From assembly GCF_003725295.1 (NCBI RefSeq), contig NZ_QICB01000007.1, positions 1-64,000 on the forward strand: 64,000 bases of DNA, read 5' to 3'. The notes beneath the pieces are model-generated. The model was given only the letters and a program-made list of their open reading frames with translations, searched no databases and was not told the DNA's origin. The DNA comes from Slackia faecicanis (GTDB lineage Bacteria; Actinomycetota; Coriobacteriia; Coriobacteriales; Eggerthellaceae). Below, in pieces: positions 56,767 through 64,000 of the stretch (positions within the stretch are counted from its first letter, which is position 1; every line of letters starts with the position of its first letter). The translations under genes and the position numbers were made by a program.

Positions 56767-58131
56767 ATGCTGAATATCATGGAGGTCCATGAGACCAATC
56801 AGATGATCGAGCAGGAAAAGCTCGACGTGCGCACCATCACCATGGGCATCAGCCTGCTCGACTGCGCGTGCGACGATGTGGACGAGCTATGCGACAATAT
56901 ATATAAGAAGATCGTCTCGTACGCCAAAGACCTCGTTCCCACGGGGCAGGCGATCGAGCGCGAATACGGCATTCCCATCGTGAACAAGCGCATTTCCGTG
57001 ACGCCTATCGCGCTGGTAGGCGCCCGCGCATGCAAGACCACGGACGATTTCGTCAAAGTGATACACGCGCTCGATAGGGCGGCGGCCGAGGTGGGCGTGA
57101 ACTTCCTGGGCGGATATTCGGCCCTCGTGAGCAAATCGATGACGCCGGCCGAAGAGCTGCTTATCCGCTCGATTCCTCAGGCGCTCGCCGAAACCGAGCG
57201 CGTCTGCGCCAGCGTGAACGTCGGCTCCACGAAAACGGGCATCAACATGGATGCCGTGAAGCTGATGGGCGAAGTGGTGCGCCAGACTGCCGAGGCCACG
57301 GCCGATAACGACAGCCTCGGCTGCGCGAAGCTCGTGGTGTTCTGCAACGCCCCCGACGACAACCCGTTCATGGCCGGCGCCTTCCACGGCGTCACCGAGG
57401 GCGATGCCGTGGTCAACGTGGGCGTTTCCGGCCCCGGCGTGGTGAAAAGCGCGCTCGAGGCCGCGCGCGGCAAAGACTTCGAGGTGCTGTGCGAGACCAT
57501 CAAGAAAACCGCGTTCAAGATCACGCGCGTCGGCCAGCTGGTGGCTCAGGAAGCAAGCCGCAGGCTGGGCGTGCCGTTCGGCATCATCGACCTGTCGCTT
57601 GCCCCGACGCCCGCGGTGGGCGATTCGGTGGGCGAGATTCTCGAGGAAATCGGCCTGGAACAGGTGGGCGCGCCCGGCACCACGGCGGCGCTCGCCATGC
57701 TCAACGACCAGGTGAAGAAGGGCGGCGTCATGGCGTCGAGCTATGTCGGCGGCCTGTCGGGCGCGTTCATTCCCGTGTCCGAGGATAAGAATATGATCGA
57801 CGCGGCGGCCAACGGTTGCCTGACCATCGAGAAGCTCGAGGCCATGACCTGCGTCTGCAGCGTGGGCCTGGATATGATCGCCATTCCCGGCGACACCACG
57901 GCTTCCACCATTGCGGGCATCATCGCCGACGAGGCGGCGATCGGCATGGTGAACCAGAAGACCACGGCCGTGCGCGTGATCCCCGTGATCGGCAAGGGCG
58001 TCGGCGAAACGGCCGAGTTCGGCGGCCTGCTGGGATACGCCCCCATCATGCCAGTGAACACGAAGAGCTGCGAGGCGTTCGTCAGCCGCGGCGGCCGCAT
58101 TCCCGCGCCGATCCATTCGTTCAAGAATTAA
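56767..58131 (+). CDS. UPF0210 / DUF711 family protein
   Basis: The 454-aa protein matches the UPF0210 (DUF711, PFL-like fold) family: [97 protein letters not shown], and [35 protein letters not shown]. Function is unknown; the conserved ACT partner upstream suggests amino-acid-sensing regulation of an enzyme. ATG 56767 follows gaaagg. A terminator lies at 58165-58202. Confidence 0.93.
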
Positions 58132-58164
58132 GCCGTTCGGCGCATCGGCGCCGCGCGCGGTTTC

Positions 58165-58202
58165 AAACGCCGTCGGGCCAGCGGGCTCGGCGGCGTTTTT
58201 TC
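58165..58202 (+). terminator. Intrinsic terminator after UPF0210 gene
   Basis: aaacgccg pairs with cggcgttt and is followed by T6. Confidence 0.8.
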
Positions 58203-58402
58203 GTTGCAGGGCGAAGCCGCGGGGAAGAGGTCGAGGCGCGCTTGTGCCGTTCTTCGCGTTTTGCCCGCCCGGCCGCGCGGGCGCCCTTTCGCGCCGGCCT
58301 ATAATCGTGGACATTGTCCGACGCCCTCGCACGGAGGCGGCGCTTGCGGGCCCGTCGCGCGGGCCGCGTTTCGGTCGGACCGGTCAAAGCAAGGAGACGA
58401 AC

Positions 58403-59284
58403 GTGTCGTATGTTGAAATAACCAGTCTGGACGATCCTCGGCTCGATGCCTATGCGCGCCTGACCGAGGCCCAGCTGCGCAATAAGCTCGAGCCCGAGAA
58501 GGGCATCTTCATCGCCGAGAGCATCAAGGTGATCGATCGCGCGCTCGCGGGCGGCATGCAGCCCGTTTCGGTGCTGATGACGCCCGAATGGAAAGAGGCC
58601 GCGGCTTCGACGATCGAGGCGATCGAGCGTGCGGGCGCACAGCTTGGGCTCGATGTGCCGGTGTTCGTGGCGCCCGAGGCCGAGCTGAAGAAGCTGACCG
58701 GCTTCGCGTTGACGCGCGGCATCTTGTGCGCCATGCGCCGCCCCGCGCTGCTGAGCGTCGAGGAACTGCTGGCGGGCATCGACGAGGCCCGCGCCGCAGC
58801 GGAAAACGATGACGGCCGCCGCCGTATCGCCGTGCTGGAAGGCATCGTCGACCACACCAACGTCGGCGCCATCTTCCGCTCGGCCGCTGCGCTGGGCATC
58901 GATGCCGTGCTCGTCACGCCGACGTGCTGCGACCCGCTGTATCGCCGCGCCGTGCGCGTGTCCATGGGCACGGTGTTTCAGGTGCCGTGGACGCGCATCG
59001 GCGAAACCGTGCGCGATTGGCCCGCGGCGGGTCTGGAAACGCTGGGCAGGCTCGGCTACAAAACGGCGGCCATGGCGCTTTCGGACGATTCGGTTCCGCT
59101 GGGTGACGAAACGCTTGCCGCATGCGACAAGCTGGCGCTCGTGTTCGGCACCGAAGGCGACGGGCTGTCGCATCGCACGATCGAAGGGTGCGATTTCACG
59201 GTGCGCATCCCGATGATGCACGGCGTCGACAGCCTTAACGTGGCGGCCGCATCGGCGGTCACGTTCTGGGAGCTGTGTCGTTAG
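58403..59284 (+). CDS. TrmH/SpoU-family RNA 2'-O-methyltransferase
   Basis: The 293-aa SPOUT enzyme has the substrate-binding N-domain (IFIAESIKVIDRAL, about residues 30-100) and the knotted SAM domain: motif 1 LEGIVDHTNVGAIFRSAAALGID, motif 2 LALVFGTEGDGLSHRTI, and motif 3 VRIPMMHGVDSLNVAAASAV. Target may be tRNA G18 or a 23S ribose. GTG 58403 follows aaggag with ideal spacing; an upstream in-frame reading has no ribosome site. A TATAAT box lies at 58300-58305 without a clear -35. Confidence 0.92.
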   Translation: MSYVEITSLDDPRLDAYARLTEAQLRNKLEPEKGIFIAESIKVIDRALAGGMQPVSVLMTPEWKEAAASTIEAIERAGAQLGLDVPVFVAPEAELKKLTGFALTRGILCAMRRPALLSVEELLAGIDEARAAAENDDGRRRIAVLEGIVDHTNVGAIFRSAAALGIDAVLVTPTCCDPLYRRAVRVSMGTVFQVPWTRIGETVRDWPAAGLETLGRLGYKTAAMALSDDSVPLGDETLAACDKLALVFGTEGDGLSHRTIEGCDFTVRIPMMHGVDSLNVAAASAVTFWELCR

Positions 59285-59529
59285 CGGCATCGGCACGCGG
59301 CGCGGTTCGCGGGGGCGAATCGGGCGGAAGGATGCTTTTTCGACGGTCCGTCGGCGTTCGAGCCGGCGGACCGTCTTGCGTTCGAGGGGCTTGGGCGGGC
59401 CGCCGCTGCGAGCGGTCGGCTTCGCCGGGCGAAAGGAGTTACGCTGCGTTTTGCCTCGTTTTGATGAATTTCAAGGCGCCGCAAATTCCAGGAAAACTTT
59501 TTCCGGTGGGGGAGAAAGTTTTAAACACA

Positions 59530-59810
59530 AGATGCTGTGGAATCCACCAAGTTTTCAACATTCTTTGAGTAATAAGTGTAAAACAAGGTCTTAAGTTACT
59601 TTTCGATACTTGAATATATGGAAGAAAAACCCAAGGTGACACCAGGTGTTGTTGAAAACCCCTGCGTTATCAAGGTATGTGGAAGAAACTATTAACAAGA
59701 ATGTTGAAAAGTGTGTCTTGTTGAAAAAGTTATCAACAGTGAAAAAGCTTGCAGTTTTCAATAAAAAATTTAAAAAGTATTAGTAACTAAGTATTTATTT
59801 AATACTAATA
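59530..59810. other. Origin-like block: DnaA-box cluster with AT-rich unwinding region
   Basis: In this GC-rich genome the 280-bp segment is strikingly AT-rich and carries many DnaA-box-like nonamers in both orientations: ttttcaaca (59552), tgttgaaaa (59650, 59702, 59719), tgtggaaga (59678) and ttatcaaca (59730), plus weaker forms at 59536, 59667 and 59755. They are followed by a nearly GC-free tract (59760-59810) like a DNA unwinding element. This is the usual anatomy of oriC. No dnaA, dnaN or rpmH gene is adjacent, so a displaced chromosomal origin, one half of a bipartite origin, or a DnaA-titration site are all possible. Confidence 0.6.
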
Positions 59811-59890
59811 AGGTCGGCACGGTAGACTGAAAGGGAGCCGCCGAACAGCGCAATGGCGTGCTCGCATACGGCGTCGTGCGGCTGCGGCGT

Positions 59891-59957
59891 CATTCATGTT
59901 GGATGGAATCCAAGAAGCAATAAGAAACAGGGTTACTGATAGTAACCAACATGAATG
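59891..59957 (+). promoter_or_regulatory. Nested inverted repeats in the carbonic anhydrase leader
   Basis: cattcatgttgg (59891-59902) is the exact complement of ccaacatgaatg (59946-59957). A perfect ggttact/agtaacc hairpin (59931-59937 with 59941-59947) overlaps the latter by two bases, so the two structures compete. The ribosome site ggagg follows directly. The arrangement suggests leader-based translational control. Confidence 0.5.
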
Positions 59958-59968
59958 GAGGAACCGAA

Positions 59969-60496
59969 ATGATCATCGAGTTCAAGGGAATGCGTCCCGA
60001 CATCGATAAGGCGGCCTACATCGCGGAGAATGCGACCATCAGCGGCGACGTGACGCTCGGCGAGAACAGCTCCGTATGGTTCAACGCCGTCATGCGCGCC
60101 GAGGTGGCCCCCATCACCGTGGGCGCTCTGAGCAACGTGCAGGACCACGTGATGCTTCATGCCGATTACGATTGCCCCGTCACGATCGGCGACCGTGTTT
60201 CGATCGGCCACAGCGCCATCGTGCACGGCGCCACGATCGAAGACCGCGTGATCGTGGGTATGGGCGCCATCGTGATGAACGGCGCCGTCATCGGCGAAGG
60301 TTCCATCATCGCCGCGGGCGCGCTGGTGAAGGAGGGCATGGTCGTTCCGCCCTATTCGCTGGTGGCAGGCGTTCCCGGCGTGGTGAAGAAGACCTTCGAG
60401 CCCGGCCAGCGTCCGCAGGAGCACAACGACGAGGTGTACACCGACGACGCCTTCGCCTACGCCGCGGCCCCGCATTACCCGGTTCCCGTGAAATAG
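59969..60496 (+). CDS. Gamma-class carbonic anhydrase-like protein
   Basis: The 175-aa left-handed beta-helix protein has hexapeptide repeats throughout (for example ENATISGDVTLGENSSVWFN and VSIGHSAIVHGATIEDRVIVGMGAIVMNGAVIGEGSIIAAGALV). The metal-ligand histidines are visible in HVMLH and IGHSAIVHG, and the catalytic-loop context is SSVWFNAVMRAE. Family members hydrate CO2 or are inactive acyl-type homologues (YrdA/PaaY). ATG 59969 follows atggagga. A terminator follows at 60525-60547. Confidence 0.9.
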   Translation: MIIEFKGMRPDIDKAAYIAENATISGDVTLGENSSVWFNAVMRAEVAPITVGALSNVQDHVMLHADYDCPVTIGDRVSIGHSAIVHGATIEDRVIVGMGAIVMNGAVIGEGSIIAAGALVKEGMVVPPYSLVAGVPGVVKKTFEPGQRPQEHNDEVYTDDAFAYAAAPHYPVPVK

Positions 60497-60524
60497 CGCA
60501 TATCCAAGAATGTATGAGAAGAAG

Positions 60525-60547
60525 GCGGCCTGTAGGCCGCTTTCTTT
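60525..60547 (+). terminator. Terminator after carbonic anhydrase gene
   Basis: gcggcc tgta ggccgc is followed by tttcttt. Confidence 0.88.
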
Positions 60548-60731
60548 GCGCATATGCGGACGGCGTGCGTTTTGGGGCGAGCGGTAGAGCCTTTTGAGAG
60601 GCGCGATTTATTACCTGGATGGGATGAAATCGGGACTTATAAATATATCCTCGCGAAAGCTTCTTTGCTACCATGAGAGCATGGTTTGCAGATATCGGCT
60701 GTTTGATGTTTTGCTCTGATTTAATTTGTTG
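60548..60731 (+). other. Upstream part of the cas9/tracrRNA region
   Basis: Between the carbonic anhydrase terminator and the tracrRNA 3' end lies a 184-bp AT-rich stretch with a TATAAATATAT run (60638-60648), which may hold the cas9 promoter. It also has a small ccatg/catgg hairpin (60671-60684). No coding region or CRISPR repeat is seen. Confidence 0.4.
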
Positions 60732-60847
60732 AAAAAAGAAAGAACCCTTTCGGGTTCTTCGATTCCCATCTAAATGGGGCTGCTATATGCAGCGGGTGAG
60801 GCAGAGCCTTTATTTTGACTCGCAGCGTCACTCTGGGTAAGAGCAAC
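60732..60847 (-). ncRNA. tracrRNA of the type II CRISPR-Cas system
   Basis: Read on the minus strand, about 116 nt show every tracrRNA element. The 36-nt anti-repeat (60847-60812) ends in gcgagtcaaaat and leads into aaaataaaggctctgcc, very like the aaaataaggctagtccg nexus lead-in of the Streptococcus pyogenes tracrRNA. The nexus stem is ggc tct gcc (60808-60800). Hairpin 1 is gctgc-atata-gcagc (60793-60779), hairpin 2 cccat-ttag-atggg (60778-60765). The terminator is aagaaccc-gaaa-gggttctt (60759-60740) followed by TCTTTTTT. A promoter lies just upstream. It pairs with the crRNA repeat and guides RNase III processing and Cas9 loading. Confidence 0.85.
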
Positions 60848-60853
60848 GAGGGC

Positions 60854-60882
60854 ATAGTATCAAATGGGAGGGAGTGCTTCAA
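60854..60882 (-). promoter_or_regulatory. tracrRNA promoter, overlapping the cas9 ribosome site
   Basis: On the minus strand TTGAAG (60882-60877) and TACTAT (60859-60854) are separated by exactly 17 bp. Start would be near 60847, the first base of the anti-repeat. The -35 box ends two bases before the cas9 start codon and the spacer contains the cas9 ribosome site. Confidence 0.72.
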
Positions 60883-60883
60883 G

Positions 60884-63800
60884 GTGAATCTGAGGAACGT
60901 CGGTGATTACTATATCGGACTCGATATCGGCACGAACTCCGTCGGATGGGCCGTTGTCGATGAAGACGGCGATCTGTGTAAATTCAAAGGCAAGAATACG
61001 TGGGGGAGTCGTTTGTTCGATCAGGCGAAAACCGCCGCCGACACGAGGATGTCGCGCACGCTTCGTCGTCGTTACGGCCGCCGCAAGCAGCGAATCCAGG
61101 ACCTGCGCGCATTTCTCTATCCCGACATCGAAAAGGTCGATCCTGATTTCTTCTGCCGCATGGCTCAGTCGGCCCTTGTGAAGGATGATCGCGACTTTGC
61201 AAGTAAGTTCACCTTTTTCGTAGGTGACGAATACGACGATGCCGATTTCTATTCTCGCGAAGGCGGATATCCGACAATCTACCACCTCCGACATGCTCTG
61301 GTAACTTCGAGCGAGAAGGTGGATATACGCCTTGTGTACCTCGCCCTTCATCACATGATGAAGTATCGAGGCAATTTTTTGGTTGAGGGGGAGATGTCTG
61401 CGGCAGACGCCGATGCTGGTGCTGCTGTCGAGAATTTCCTTTCTGCGTTTGAGTTGTATTTCGAGGAAAAGGGAGTCGACTATCTTCGTCAGGACACCGA
61501 CGCAAGCGCTTTGATACTTGCGCTAGGCGACACTTCCAAAGTGAGGGCGGTGCGTCGAGATGATTTCGCTGCGGCCCTCGGGCTGCCGAAATCGGAGGCT
61601 GCTGCAGCGAAGGAGATAGCGAAGGCGGCATTCGGTTATAAGGCGAATTTCTCAAAGATCATTCCTCTAGACGAGGCGAGCGATGCGTCGTTCGCGCTTA
61701 GTGACGAGGCAAAGTCACAGAGCTTCGAGGACGAGGTGTTGCCCGAGGAGTATGCCGACCTTTACGCTTCGCTCAAGGAGTTGCACGGTGCCTATTTGCT
61801 TTCGGGTATTTTGTCCGACGCCCAGGGCGAAACTCTTTCCGCGGCAATGGTTCGTCGTTGGGAGGATCATCGTGCCGACCTGAAGAAGCTGAAGAGTCTT
61901 GTGCGACGCTATTGCCCCAAGGACGATCAGGGGGTCAATCGAATCTACAACTTGATATTCAGGGGCGCCCGCTATGCCGATGGCACGTATAAGAAAAAGA
62001 AAGATGCGAAGGGGTATACGTCCTACATTCTAGGAAGCGTCTCCCGCGATGATTTCTATGCGGAGCTAAAGAAGCAGATTGCTCCGTTTGCGGATTCTTT
62101 CGTTGATGACGATGCTCGATTCTGGGATGAGTCCCTGCAAAAGATGGAGGACGGAACGTTCCTGCGAAAACTCAGGACCAGCGAGAACGGCGCGATCCCC
62201 CATCAGCTCCATTTGGAGGAGATGCGAGCTGTTATCGATAATCAAAAAGCGTATTATCCTACCCTCGCCGAACACGGGGAAGAGATTTGCCAGCTACTCG
62301 CGTTTCGTCTGCCTTATTATGTGGGCCCCTTGGGTAAGGAAAGCAATCCGAATCGCAAGAAGCCGTTCGGGTGGGCCGTCCGCAAGCCGGGAAAAGAGTC
62401 CGAGCCCGTGCGCCCTTGGAACTTCGATGACGTCATCGATAGGGACGCGTGTGCGGAGGCGTTCATTACGAATTTGACTGGTGAGTGCAGCTACTACCTC
62501 GGTAAGAAGGTCATTCCTAAAAACTCTCTTCTGTACAGCGAATTTTGCGTTCGTCAGGAACTTAACGTATGCAAACATGATGCCGACGGCGAGCGGTTTG
62601 TCCGCATGGATGTCGAAACGGTGCAGGCGATCTACGATGATGTATTCAAGAAGAAAACTCGCGTGAAGGTCGCGGATGTCGAGGAGTACCTGAAGAGCCG
62701 TTTCGGGTCTCACTATAAGATCAAGGGCACTCAGCGTGAAACGGAGTTTGCGTCTTCGTTGCGCTCGTATGTCGATTTCGCTTGCATTCTTGAGCGCCCC
62801 ATTGAAACGTTTGAGGACTACGAGATGGTTGAAAACCTTATCTTGTGGGTTACGGTGTTCGAGGACAAGGACATACTCAAGCGGCGCGTCAACACGACGT
62901 ATGGCCCTGTCGAGTGCGGTGGAAACGGTGCTCTTTCGCGTGCTCAGGTGAAGCGTATTTGTAAGCTGCGTTATACGGGCTGGTCCAATTTGTCCCGGGA
63001 ATTCCTCGAGGAGTTGAGGGTTGATTATCAGGGTCGCAGCACCTGCATTATGGACGTGCTGCGCGATAGCGATCGATCGACCCCCATGAACCTGATGGAG
63101 ATTCTTGCCGACGAAAGGTTCGGTTTCAAACCGCTTCTCGATGCAAGGAACCAGGAGTTTTTGCACAATAGGTCAAATGACTTGCTGGATGACATTCCTG
63201 GGTCTCCCGCAATTAAACGCGGCATCAATCAGAGCCTGAAAATCGTCGATGAAATCGTTTCGATCGTCGGTCATGCGCCTGCGAAGATTTGCGTAGAGAT
63301 GGCTCGCGAGGAAGTGGGCAAGACAAAGGGCAAGCGCACTACGACTCGTTATAAGCAAATAGAAAACCTGTATGCCGCCATTACGAAAGACATGGCTCTA
63401 TACGAGGGGCAGAAGGACCTCAAGAGCGAACTGTCTAGGCATAAAGACGGATTGGATAGCAAGCGTCTCTATCTGTATTTTCTCCAACGTGGAAAGTGTG
63501 CATATAGCGGCGAGCCGCTGGATATAGCGAACTTGTCCCTTTATCACATCGACCACATTGTGCCTCAATCGGTCGTGAAGGACGATTCCATCGACAACAT
63601 GGTGCTGGTGAAGCAGTCCGAAAACGAACGCAAGCTTGACGAGTATCCGCTGCCTGCCGCCATGCGCAGCCGTTGTTTCGCTCGATGGGCCAGTTGGCAT
63701 GATGCGAAGCTGATGAGTGATAAAAAATTCAATGCTCTGACGACCGACAGGGTGACCGATCGCCAGGCGAAGGGATTCATCAACAGGCAGCTTGTTGAAA

Positions 63801-64000
63801 CGCGTCAGATTTCGAAGCACGTCGTTACATTGTTGCAATCGATTTATCCCGACTCGACGATCGAAACGGTCAAGGCGGAGCTTTCCCATAATCTTCGAGT
63901 GCAGTATGGGTTCTATAAGGTGCGTGCCGTGAACGATTGGCATCATGCTCATGATGCCTACTTGGCATGTCAGCTCAGCAGATTCGTGGCGACTCGTTTT
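60884..64000 (+). CDS. cas9: Cas9 endonuclease, type II CRISPR (3' end beyond window)
   Basis: The frame is open from GTG 60884 to the window edge, giving 1,039 residues. RuvC-I reads YYIGLDIGTNSVGWAV with Asp14. The Arg-rich bridge helix is about residues 55-74 (RMSRTLRRRYGRRKQRIQDL). The REC lobe spans about 75-790. RuvC-II is ICVEMAREE with Glu805. The HNH domain has YHIDHIVPQS with His891, followed by DDSIDNMVLV. RuvC-III is WHHAHDAYL with His1021 and Asp1024. The spacing resembles S. pyogenes Cas9 (762, 840, 983), so the full protein is probably about 1,350-1,400 aa, with the PAM-interacting part outside the window. A ggagggag ribosome site lies nine bases before GTG. No catalytic residue is missing in the visible part. 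Confidence 0.97.
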   Translation, partial: MNLRNVGDYYIGLDIGTNSVGWAVVDEDGDLCKFKGKNTWGSRLFDQAKTAADTRMSRTLRRRYGRRKQRIQDLRAFLYPDIEKVDPDFFCRMAQSALVKDDRDFASKFTFFVGDEYDDADFYSREGGYPTIYHLRHALVTSSEKVDIRLVYLALHHMMKYRGNFLVEGEMSAADADAGAAVENFLSAFELYFEEKGVDYLRQDTDASALILALGDTSKVRAVRRDDFAAALGLPKSEAAAAKEIAKAAFGYKANFSKIIPLDEASDASFALSDEAKSQSFEDEVLPEEYADLYASLKELHGAYLLSGILSDAQGETLSAAMVRRWEDHRADLKKLKSLVRRYCPKDDQGVNRIYNLIFRGARYADGTYKKKKDAKGYTSYILGSVSRDDFYAELKKQIAPFADSFVDDDARFWDESLQKMEDGTFLRKLRTSENGAIPHQLHLEEMRAVIDNQKAYYPTLAEHGEEICQLLAFRLPYYVGPLGKESNPNRKKPFGWAVRKPGKESEPVRPWNFDDVIDRDACAEAFITNLTGECSYYLGKKVIPKNSLLYSEFCVRQELNVCKHDADGERFVRMDVETVQAIYDDVFKKKTRVKVADVEEYLKSRFGSHYKIKGTQRETEFASSLRSYVDFACILERPIETFEDYEMVENLILWVTVFEDKDILKRRVNTTYGPVECGGNGALSRAQVKRICKLRYTGWSNLSREFLEELRVDYQGRSTCIMDVLRDSDRSTPMNLMEILADERFGFKPLLDARNQEFLHNRSNDLLDDIPGSPAIKRGINQSLKIVDEIVSIVGHAPAKICVEMAREEVGKTKGKRTTTRYKQIENLYAAITKDMALYEGQKDLKSELSRHKDGLDSKRLYLYFLQRGKCAYSGEPLDIANLSLYHIDHIVPQSVVKDDSIDNMVLVKQSENERKLDEYPLPAAMRSRCFARWASWHDAKLMSDKKFNALTTDRVTDRQAKGFINRQLVETRQISKHVVTLLQSIYPDSTIETVKAELSHNLRVQYGFYKVRAVNDWHHAHDAYLACQLSRFVATRF

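Follow-up and report, generated by a model that had tools for sequence, protein, structure and literature searches.

Autorepression by tracr-L is the best-known form of control in type II-A CRISPR-Cas systems. In S. pyogenes, it depends on a second, upstream tracrRNA promoter which, together with Pcas, occupies a long spacer (Workman et al., 2021, as summarized in PMC11417352). For Group B Streptococcus, a distal promoter at the 3´ end of tracrRNA, P2cas, has been proven to drive cas9 (PMC12216829, and earlier its ref. 17). P2cas is the sole cas promoter in CC-17 strains, and its authors suggest that it is newly evolved (PMC12216829); the word antisense is absent from the text of that paper. 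In the Group B Streptococcus strain NEM316, dRNA-seq detected an RNA of ~100 nt antisense to the tracrRNA 3´ end (PMC4448216). Papers on the type II-A systems of S. mutans, lactobacilli, and L. salivarius give the ends of tracrRNA; the passages searched yielded no cas9 start, and the word antisense is absent from all three. Here we describe a locus from Slackia faecicanis (family Eggerthellaceae) in which tracrRNA and cas9 are packed far more tightly than in Group B Streptococcus, and consider where its cas9 mRNA may start and what an antisense leader would mean.

The tracrRNA promoter doubles as the cas9 ribosome-binding region

The window, the whole stretch of 64,000 nt that was analyzed, belongs to contig C7 of a 2.0-Mb genome. 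In it, cas9 begins with a GTG at 60884-60886 on the plus strand and runs past the window end at 64000 (L013:485-4606), encoding a type II-A protein of 1374 aa. With DNA taken past the window end, the order cas9-cas1-cas2-csn2-array documents a complete type II-A locus, and every profile match in the cas operon (TIGR01865, cas1_NMENI, TIGR01573, and TIGR01866, the type II-A Csn2) is above cut-off. In addition to TIGR01865, Cas9 has the Pfam domains Cas9_REC, Cas9_PI, RuvC, and HNH. The CRISPR array, which lies outside the window (L013 from 6523), has 16 copies of GTTTTGGTGCAGCGTCATTCTGGGTAACAGCACAAC, and this repeat is complementary to the tracrRNA anti-repeat, as a type II-A system requires, with the best match at -71 to -38 from cas9. 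The upstream neighbor, at 59951-60496 on the plus strand, encodes a hexapeptide-repeat protein; downstream of it, at 60525-60547, lies a hairpin that resembles a terminator. Elsewhere in the same genome, a 1012-aa frame (L012; G000:C6:5417-6235) gives a distant second match to the nuclease part of Cas9, at an E value of about 1e-4.

The tracrRNA is encoded on the minus strand at 60733-60847 and is ~115 nt long, with a start that we infer from its -10 sequence. Its anti-repeat (60812-60847, minus strand) reads on the plus strand as a degenerate CRISPR repeat. An earlier note on this DNA had pointed to a repeat-like 36-mer at this place, which proved correct: aligned with the array repeat, the 36-mer agrees at 30 of 34 positions, no other stretch of the window gives such a match (24/36 ungapped, against 20/36 for the runner-up), and the duplex of repeat and anti-repeat has a predicted energy of -47 kcal/mol. 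At its other end, the tracrRNA terminates in a stem-loop and U-tract (60733-60760, minus strand; 9-bp stem at 60760-60739). An Rfam scan of 58000-64000 returned two chance-level matches and no family for this tracrRNA.

The tracrRNA promoter (60854-60882, minus strand) consists of TTGAAG (60882-60877), a 17-bp spacer, and TACTAT (60859-60854), which is preceded by TGA and thus part of an extended -10, TGATACTAT, at 60862-60854. At 13.4 bits, it is the best minus-strand site in 60700-61600, followed by sites of 12.5 bits (inside cas9 codons) and 6.4 bits. It is missing from a consensus promoter scan because 8 of its 12 hexamer bases match, below the threshold of 9/12. A strong-looking minus-strand site at 61281 was treated as chance, since it lies in the codons of the conserved Cas9 motif PTIYHLR. 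The tracrRNA promoter occupies the 36-nt gap that precedes the cas9 GTG, its -35 ending one base short of the start codon, and the cas9 Shine-Dalgarno sequence, GGGAGGGAG (60866-60874, plus strand), sits within the promoter spacer; a purine-rich Shine-Dalgarno sequence is likewise placed in relatives. The core promoter of tracrRNA doubles as the cas9 ribosome-binding region, with the two genes head to head. The earlier note had described the overlap of promoter and ribosome site, and all of its coordinates hold. In the open-access literature, we found no description of a Shine-Dalgarno sequence packed into a promoter in this manner, and no test of pairing between a cas9 leader and tracrRNA.

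In the closest relative, G001 (Cas9 90% identical over the part in the window), the block from the tracrRNA terminator through its promoter to cas9 is kept almost unchanged. The DNA beyond the terminator is unrelated, and the neighbor there is PurH-like rather than a hexapeptide-repeat protein. Similarity between the two Slackia-like genomes ends at 60733 of the window and at its counterpart in G001, upstream of the cas9 at 1971 of L014. Because similarity stops there and the upstream genes differ, we take the tracrRNA terminator to be the left edge of an exchanged module.

The packing extends well beyond these two genomes. Across 33 coriobacterial loci, the extended -10, in its plus-strand reading, is conserved at A0 (33/33), T4 (32/33), A5 (33/33), C7 (31/33), and A8 (32/33), and the strict minus-strand motif TGnTAnnnT is seen 29 times at the tracrRNA promoter against 2.3 expected. 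The tracrRNA start is 35-42 nt from the cas9 start in 28 of the 33 loci, 48 nt in one, and 87-142 nt in four; a tracrRNA terminator, by the same rule as used here, was likewise found in 28/33. Erysipelotrichia and Bacilli show the same packing, and their start codon is often directly preceded by GTCAA, which on the opposite strand is the -35 sequence TTGAC. When we counted type II-A loci with a recognizable anti-repeat, leaving out those where the anti-repeat pattern failed, the anti-repeat was ≤100 nt from the cas9 start in 79 of 110. Compact loci of Coriobacteriia, Erysipelotrichia, Bacilli, and Lactobacillales share the gene order, the ~36-nt gap, an extended -10 tracrRNA promoter, and a Shine-Dalgarno sequence in the promoter spacer. 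The overlap of promoter and ribosome site is real, old, and common, and not peculiar to this locus.

Four coriobacterial loci (L032, L034, L042, and L068) have about 50-105 extra nt between the tracrRNA promoter and cas9. In three of these four (L032, L042, and L068), the spacer carries TGATAnnCT on the plus strand, which is likely to be a local cas9 promoter.

Candidate start sites for cas9 transcription

Given that the 36-nt gap has no space for a second promoter, cas9 transcription should start beyond or inside tracrRNA; the earlier note had set a start upstream of 60732 as its condition. Candidate -10 sequences for a start at 60848-60875 are poor and not conserved. We suggest that cas9 is transcribed from a P2cas-like promoter past the tracrRNA 3´ end, around 60640-60732, which would give the mRNA a leader of about 150-240 nt containing the exact complement of tracrRNA. 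Judging from promoter motifs, we consider an antisense cas9 leader that originates beyond tracrRNA to be somewhat probable for the Slackia locus, and among compact type II-A loci such a leader is probably the norm.

We probed for plus-strand promoters with the strict extended -10 motif TGnTAnnnT, comparing counts with 1000 shuffles, after near-identical sequences had been removed from the locus sets. In 33 non-redundant compact Firmicutes loci, the interval 160-70 nt before the anti-repeat contains 25 such sites against a shuffle mean of 7.65, and none of the 1000 shuffles reaches 25, although shuffle counts of this kind overstate independence, as the loci are related by descent. The enriched site falls just past the tracrRNA 3´ end. 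On the opposite strand, 4 sites were seen against 4.9, and the gap of the same 33 loci showed no excess (6 against 5.1). Because the interval had been chosen after viewing 13 loci, the count was repeated on an independent Lactobacillales set, where 12 sites were found against 2.58 (0/1000 shuffles), distributed over 10 of 11 loci; the minus-strand control gave 1 against 1.8. The signal beyond tracrRNA is weak in Coriobacteria (6 against 2.4, reached by 39/1000 shuffles), and full -35/-10 scoring revealed no enrichment there, while plus-strand TGnTAnnnT in the coriobacterial gap numbered 0 against 2.7 expected.

In most compact Firmicutes loci, an extended -10 stands out clearly on the plus strand beyond tracrRNA; the Slackia locus itself differs in offering only weak candidates. 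An extended -10, TGCTACCAT, at 60666-60674 on the plus strand (7.4 bits) would direct a start near 60681 and a leader complementary to tracrRNA over its whole length; it has no good -35 and is absent from G001. The alternative TGATTTAAT at 60717-60725 (plus strand, 6.8 bits) is weak and would place the start near 60732, and a further weak site is found at 60646-60651 (8.5 bits). The weakness of these distal candidates, none of them common to G001, counts against a distal start, as do coriobacterial loci such as L024 and L065, in which a gene of divergent orientation lies some 25 nt away from where tracrRNA ends and leaves little room for a distal promoter.

By eye, L028 and L046 share an ACCTGC...GCAGGT inverted repeat about 20-60 nt past the tracrRNA end, followed by CTAGAATT. 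The combination resembles an operator accompanied by a -10.

Other starts deserve consideration. The cas9 mRNA could arise from a promoter within the tracrRNA gene, on the plus strand at 60815-60843, where TTGACT (60815-60820) is separated by 17 bp from TAAGAG (60838-60843; 6.8 bits in all). The start would be near 60850, giving a leader of ~34 nt with no tracrRNA overlap. TTGACT matches 5/6, is correctly spaced, and is conserved, but its sequence is already accounted for by anti-repeat pairing and the bulge, and TAAGAG is without the final T that is essential to a -10. In the majority of relatives, this place reads TGGTAT or GGTAAT, with no A at position 2. Coriobacterial plus-strand scores between the anti-repeat and the start modestly exceed shuffles (z 0.8), yet 10 bits is reached in just 1 of 33 loci, and, as noted above, strict extended -10 sites are absent where 2.7 are expected. 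We regard this promoter as unlikely, though it deserves more weight than the two arrangements that follow. Transcription could simply read through from the upstream gene with no dedicated cas9 promoter, and this leader, too, would run antisense to tracrRNA. The upstream gene points the same way as cas9 at this locus and in 17 of the 31 coriobacterial loci scored, but it is followed by the hairpin noted above, the neighbors differ between the Slackia genome (G000) and G001, and the orientation is opposite in 14/31. As this distribution (17 plus, 14 minus) is near random, read-through is not a general route in Coriobacteria, and we think it improbable at this locus. Least credible to us is a bidirectional promoter with overlapping -10s, in which TAGTAT on the plus strand (60855-60860) mirrors TACTAT on the minus strand and cas9 starts near 60867. 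The 7-mer ATAGTAT does provide a -10-like hexamer on either strand in both G000 and G001, and bacterial bidirectional promoters of the overlapping -10 type are already known (PMC12825309 and PMC10268837). However, the plus side has neither a -35 nor a TG extension, and an mRNA starting near 60867 would lose part of the Shine-Dalgarno sequence. A symmetrical bidirectional -10 was rejected from base frequencies among relatives: the T that TAnnnT on both strands would require at the mirrored -12 position is present in just 3/33.

Possible consequences of an antisense cas9 leader

If cas9 is transcribed from beyond tracrRNA, its leader and tracrRNA may pair in the cell, and pairing or polymerase collision could lower tracrRNA, or RNase III could trim the leader. 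Full-length pairing, over ~115 nt with a leader from beyond 60732, would cover the nexus and hairpins of tracrRNA and remove the bulge. From the architecture of guide RNAs, Cas9 loading should fail without a free nexus, hairpins, and bulge. For this reason, the earlier idea that the 36-mer in the leader might be bound by Cas9 is unlikely to be right. A plausible route of effect, if there is any, is titration by the antisense leader or cutting by RNase III, and polymerase collision is plausible as well. The duplex would stop ~19 nt upstream of the Shine-Dalgarno sequence, with the start codon farther downstream still, and an RNase III-trimmed cas9 mRNA should therefore stay translatable. In predicted leader folds, accessibility of the Shine-Dalgarno sequence was 0.42-0.59 in every form, with tracrRNA bound or free, and no consistent masking or unmasking was seen. 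The most likely outcome is a modest mutual interference of both transcripts with no dedicated feedback switch; feedback via leader:tracrRNA pairing, as proposed in the earlier note, is a hypothesis drawn from the arrangement of the DNA.

It is also conceivable that the overlap has no regulatory meaning. In this explanation, which concerns function and not the start site, the layout came about as a mobile module was compacted, and any antisense pairing is noise that is tolerated. We consider the chances of this to be about even. Immunity works in Group B Streptococcus strains that rely on P2cas alone (PMC12216829), the Shine-Dalgarno sequence lies outside the duplex and has a similar predicted accessibility whether or not tracrRNA is bound, and the left edge of the module coincides with the tracrRNA terminator, as expected of a compact exchanged unit. 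On the other hand, the 36-39-nt gap is strikingly constant in two phyla, which could mean coupling, although minimal packing also explains it. A bolder proposal is that most type II-A loci have in the cas9 leader an inbuilt antisense partner for tracrRNA, and that RNase III cutting or titration acts as a physiological control by which Cas9 synthesis is tied to the pool of free tracrRNA. The tracr-L circuit of S. pyogenes would then have replaced this control later, where a spacer had been gained. We think this rather doubtful.

These considerations have implications beyond Slackia. The compact layout, found in the majority of type II-A loci compared, leaves no space for a tracr-L circuit. If cas9 is made from beyond tracrRNA, the Cas9 mRNA and the Cas9 cofactor would be complementary through much of type II-A, which raises a testable and neglected question: do cas9 mRNA and tracrRNA regulate each other, or does the cell simply put up with their complementarity? 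There is also a practical side, since removing the DNA upstream of tracrRNA when native loci are cloned may delete the cas9 promoter.

Comparison with described type II-A systems

In S. pyogenes, as in Slackia, tracrRNA lies upstream of cas9 on the opposite strand, and regulation there is tied to tracrRNA, as the earlier note proposed for this locus. A second tracrRNA promoter of the tracr-L type was not found in the Slackia locus, where the 36-nt gap holds one minus-strand promoter and has no space for Pcas either. The fold-back expected of a tracr-L was no better than in shuffles, but this comparison has little power, as even the positive control from Group B Streptococcus did scarcely better.

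Group B Streptococcus provides the closer parallel. The distance from anti-repeat to cas9 is ~250 nt there (L078), against 72 in Slackia, and the spacer fits P1cas and the tracr-L promoter, with CovR control. The NEM316 antisense RNA resembles the proposed Slackia leader in being a plus-strand transcript complementary to tracrRNA, but it was seen as an RNA of ~100 nt rather than as a cas9 leader. Because the plus-strand extended -10 is enriched past tracrRNA in compact Firmicutes loci, our motif counts suggest that a promoter beyond tracrRNA is widespread, and that P2cas is not newly evolved. With its cas9 promoter beyond tracrRNA, Group B Streptococcus sets a precedent, and the layout is known in kind. 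From P2cas, the cas9 mRNA traverses the tracrRNA gene in antisense, as we propose for the Slackia locus; a cas9 message antisense to tracrRNA thus exists in Group B Streptococcus and is compatible with working immunity.
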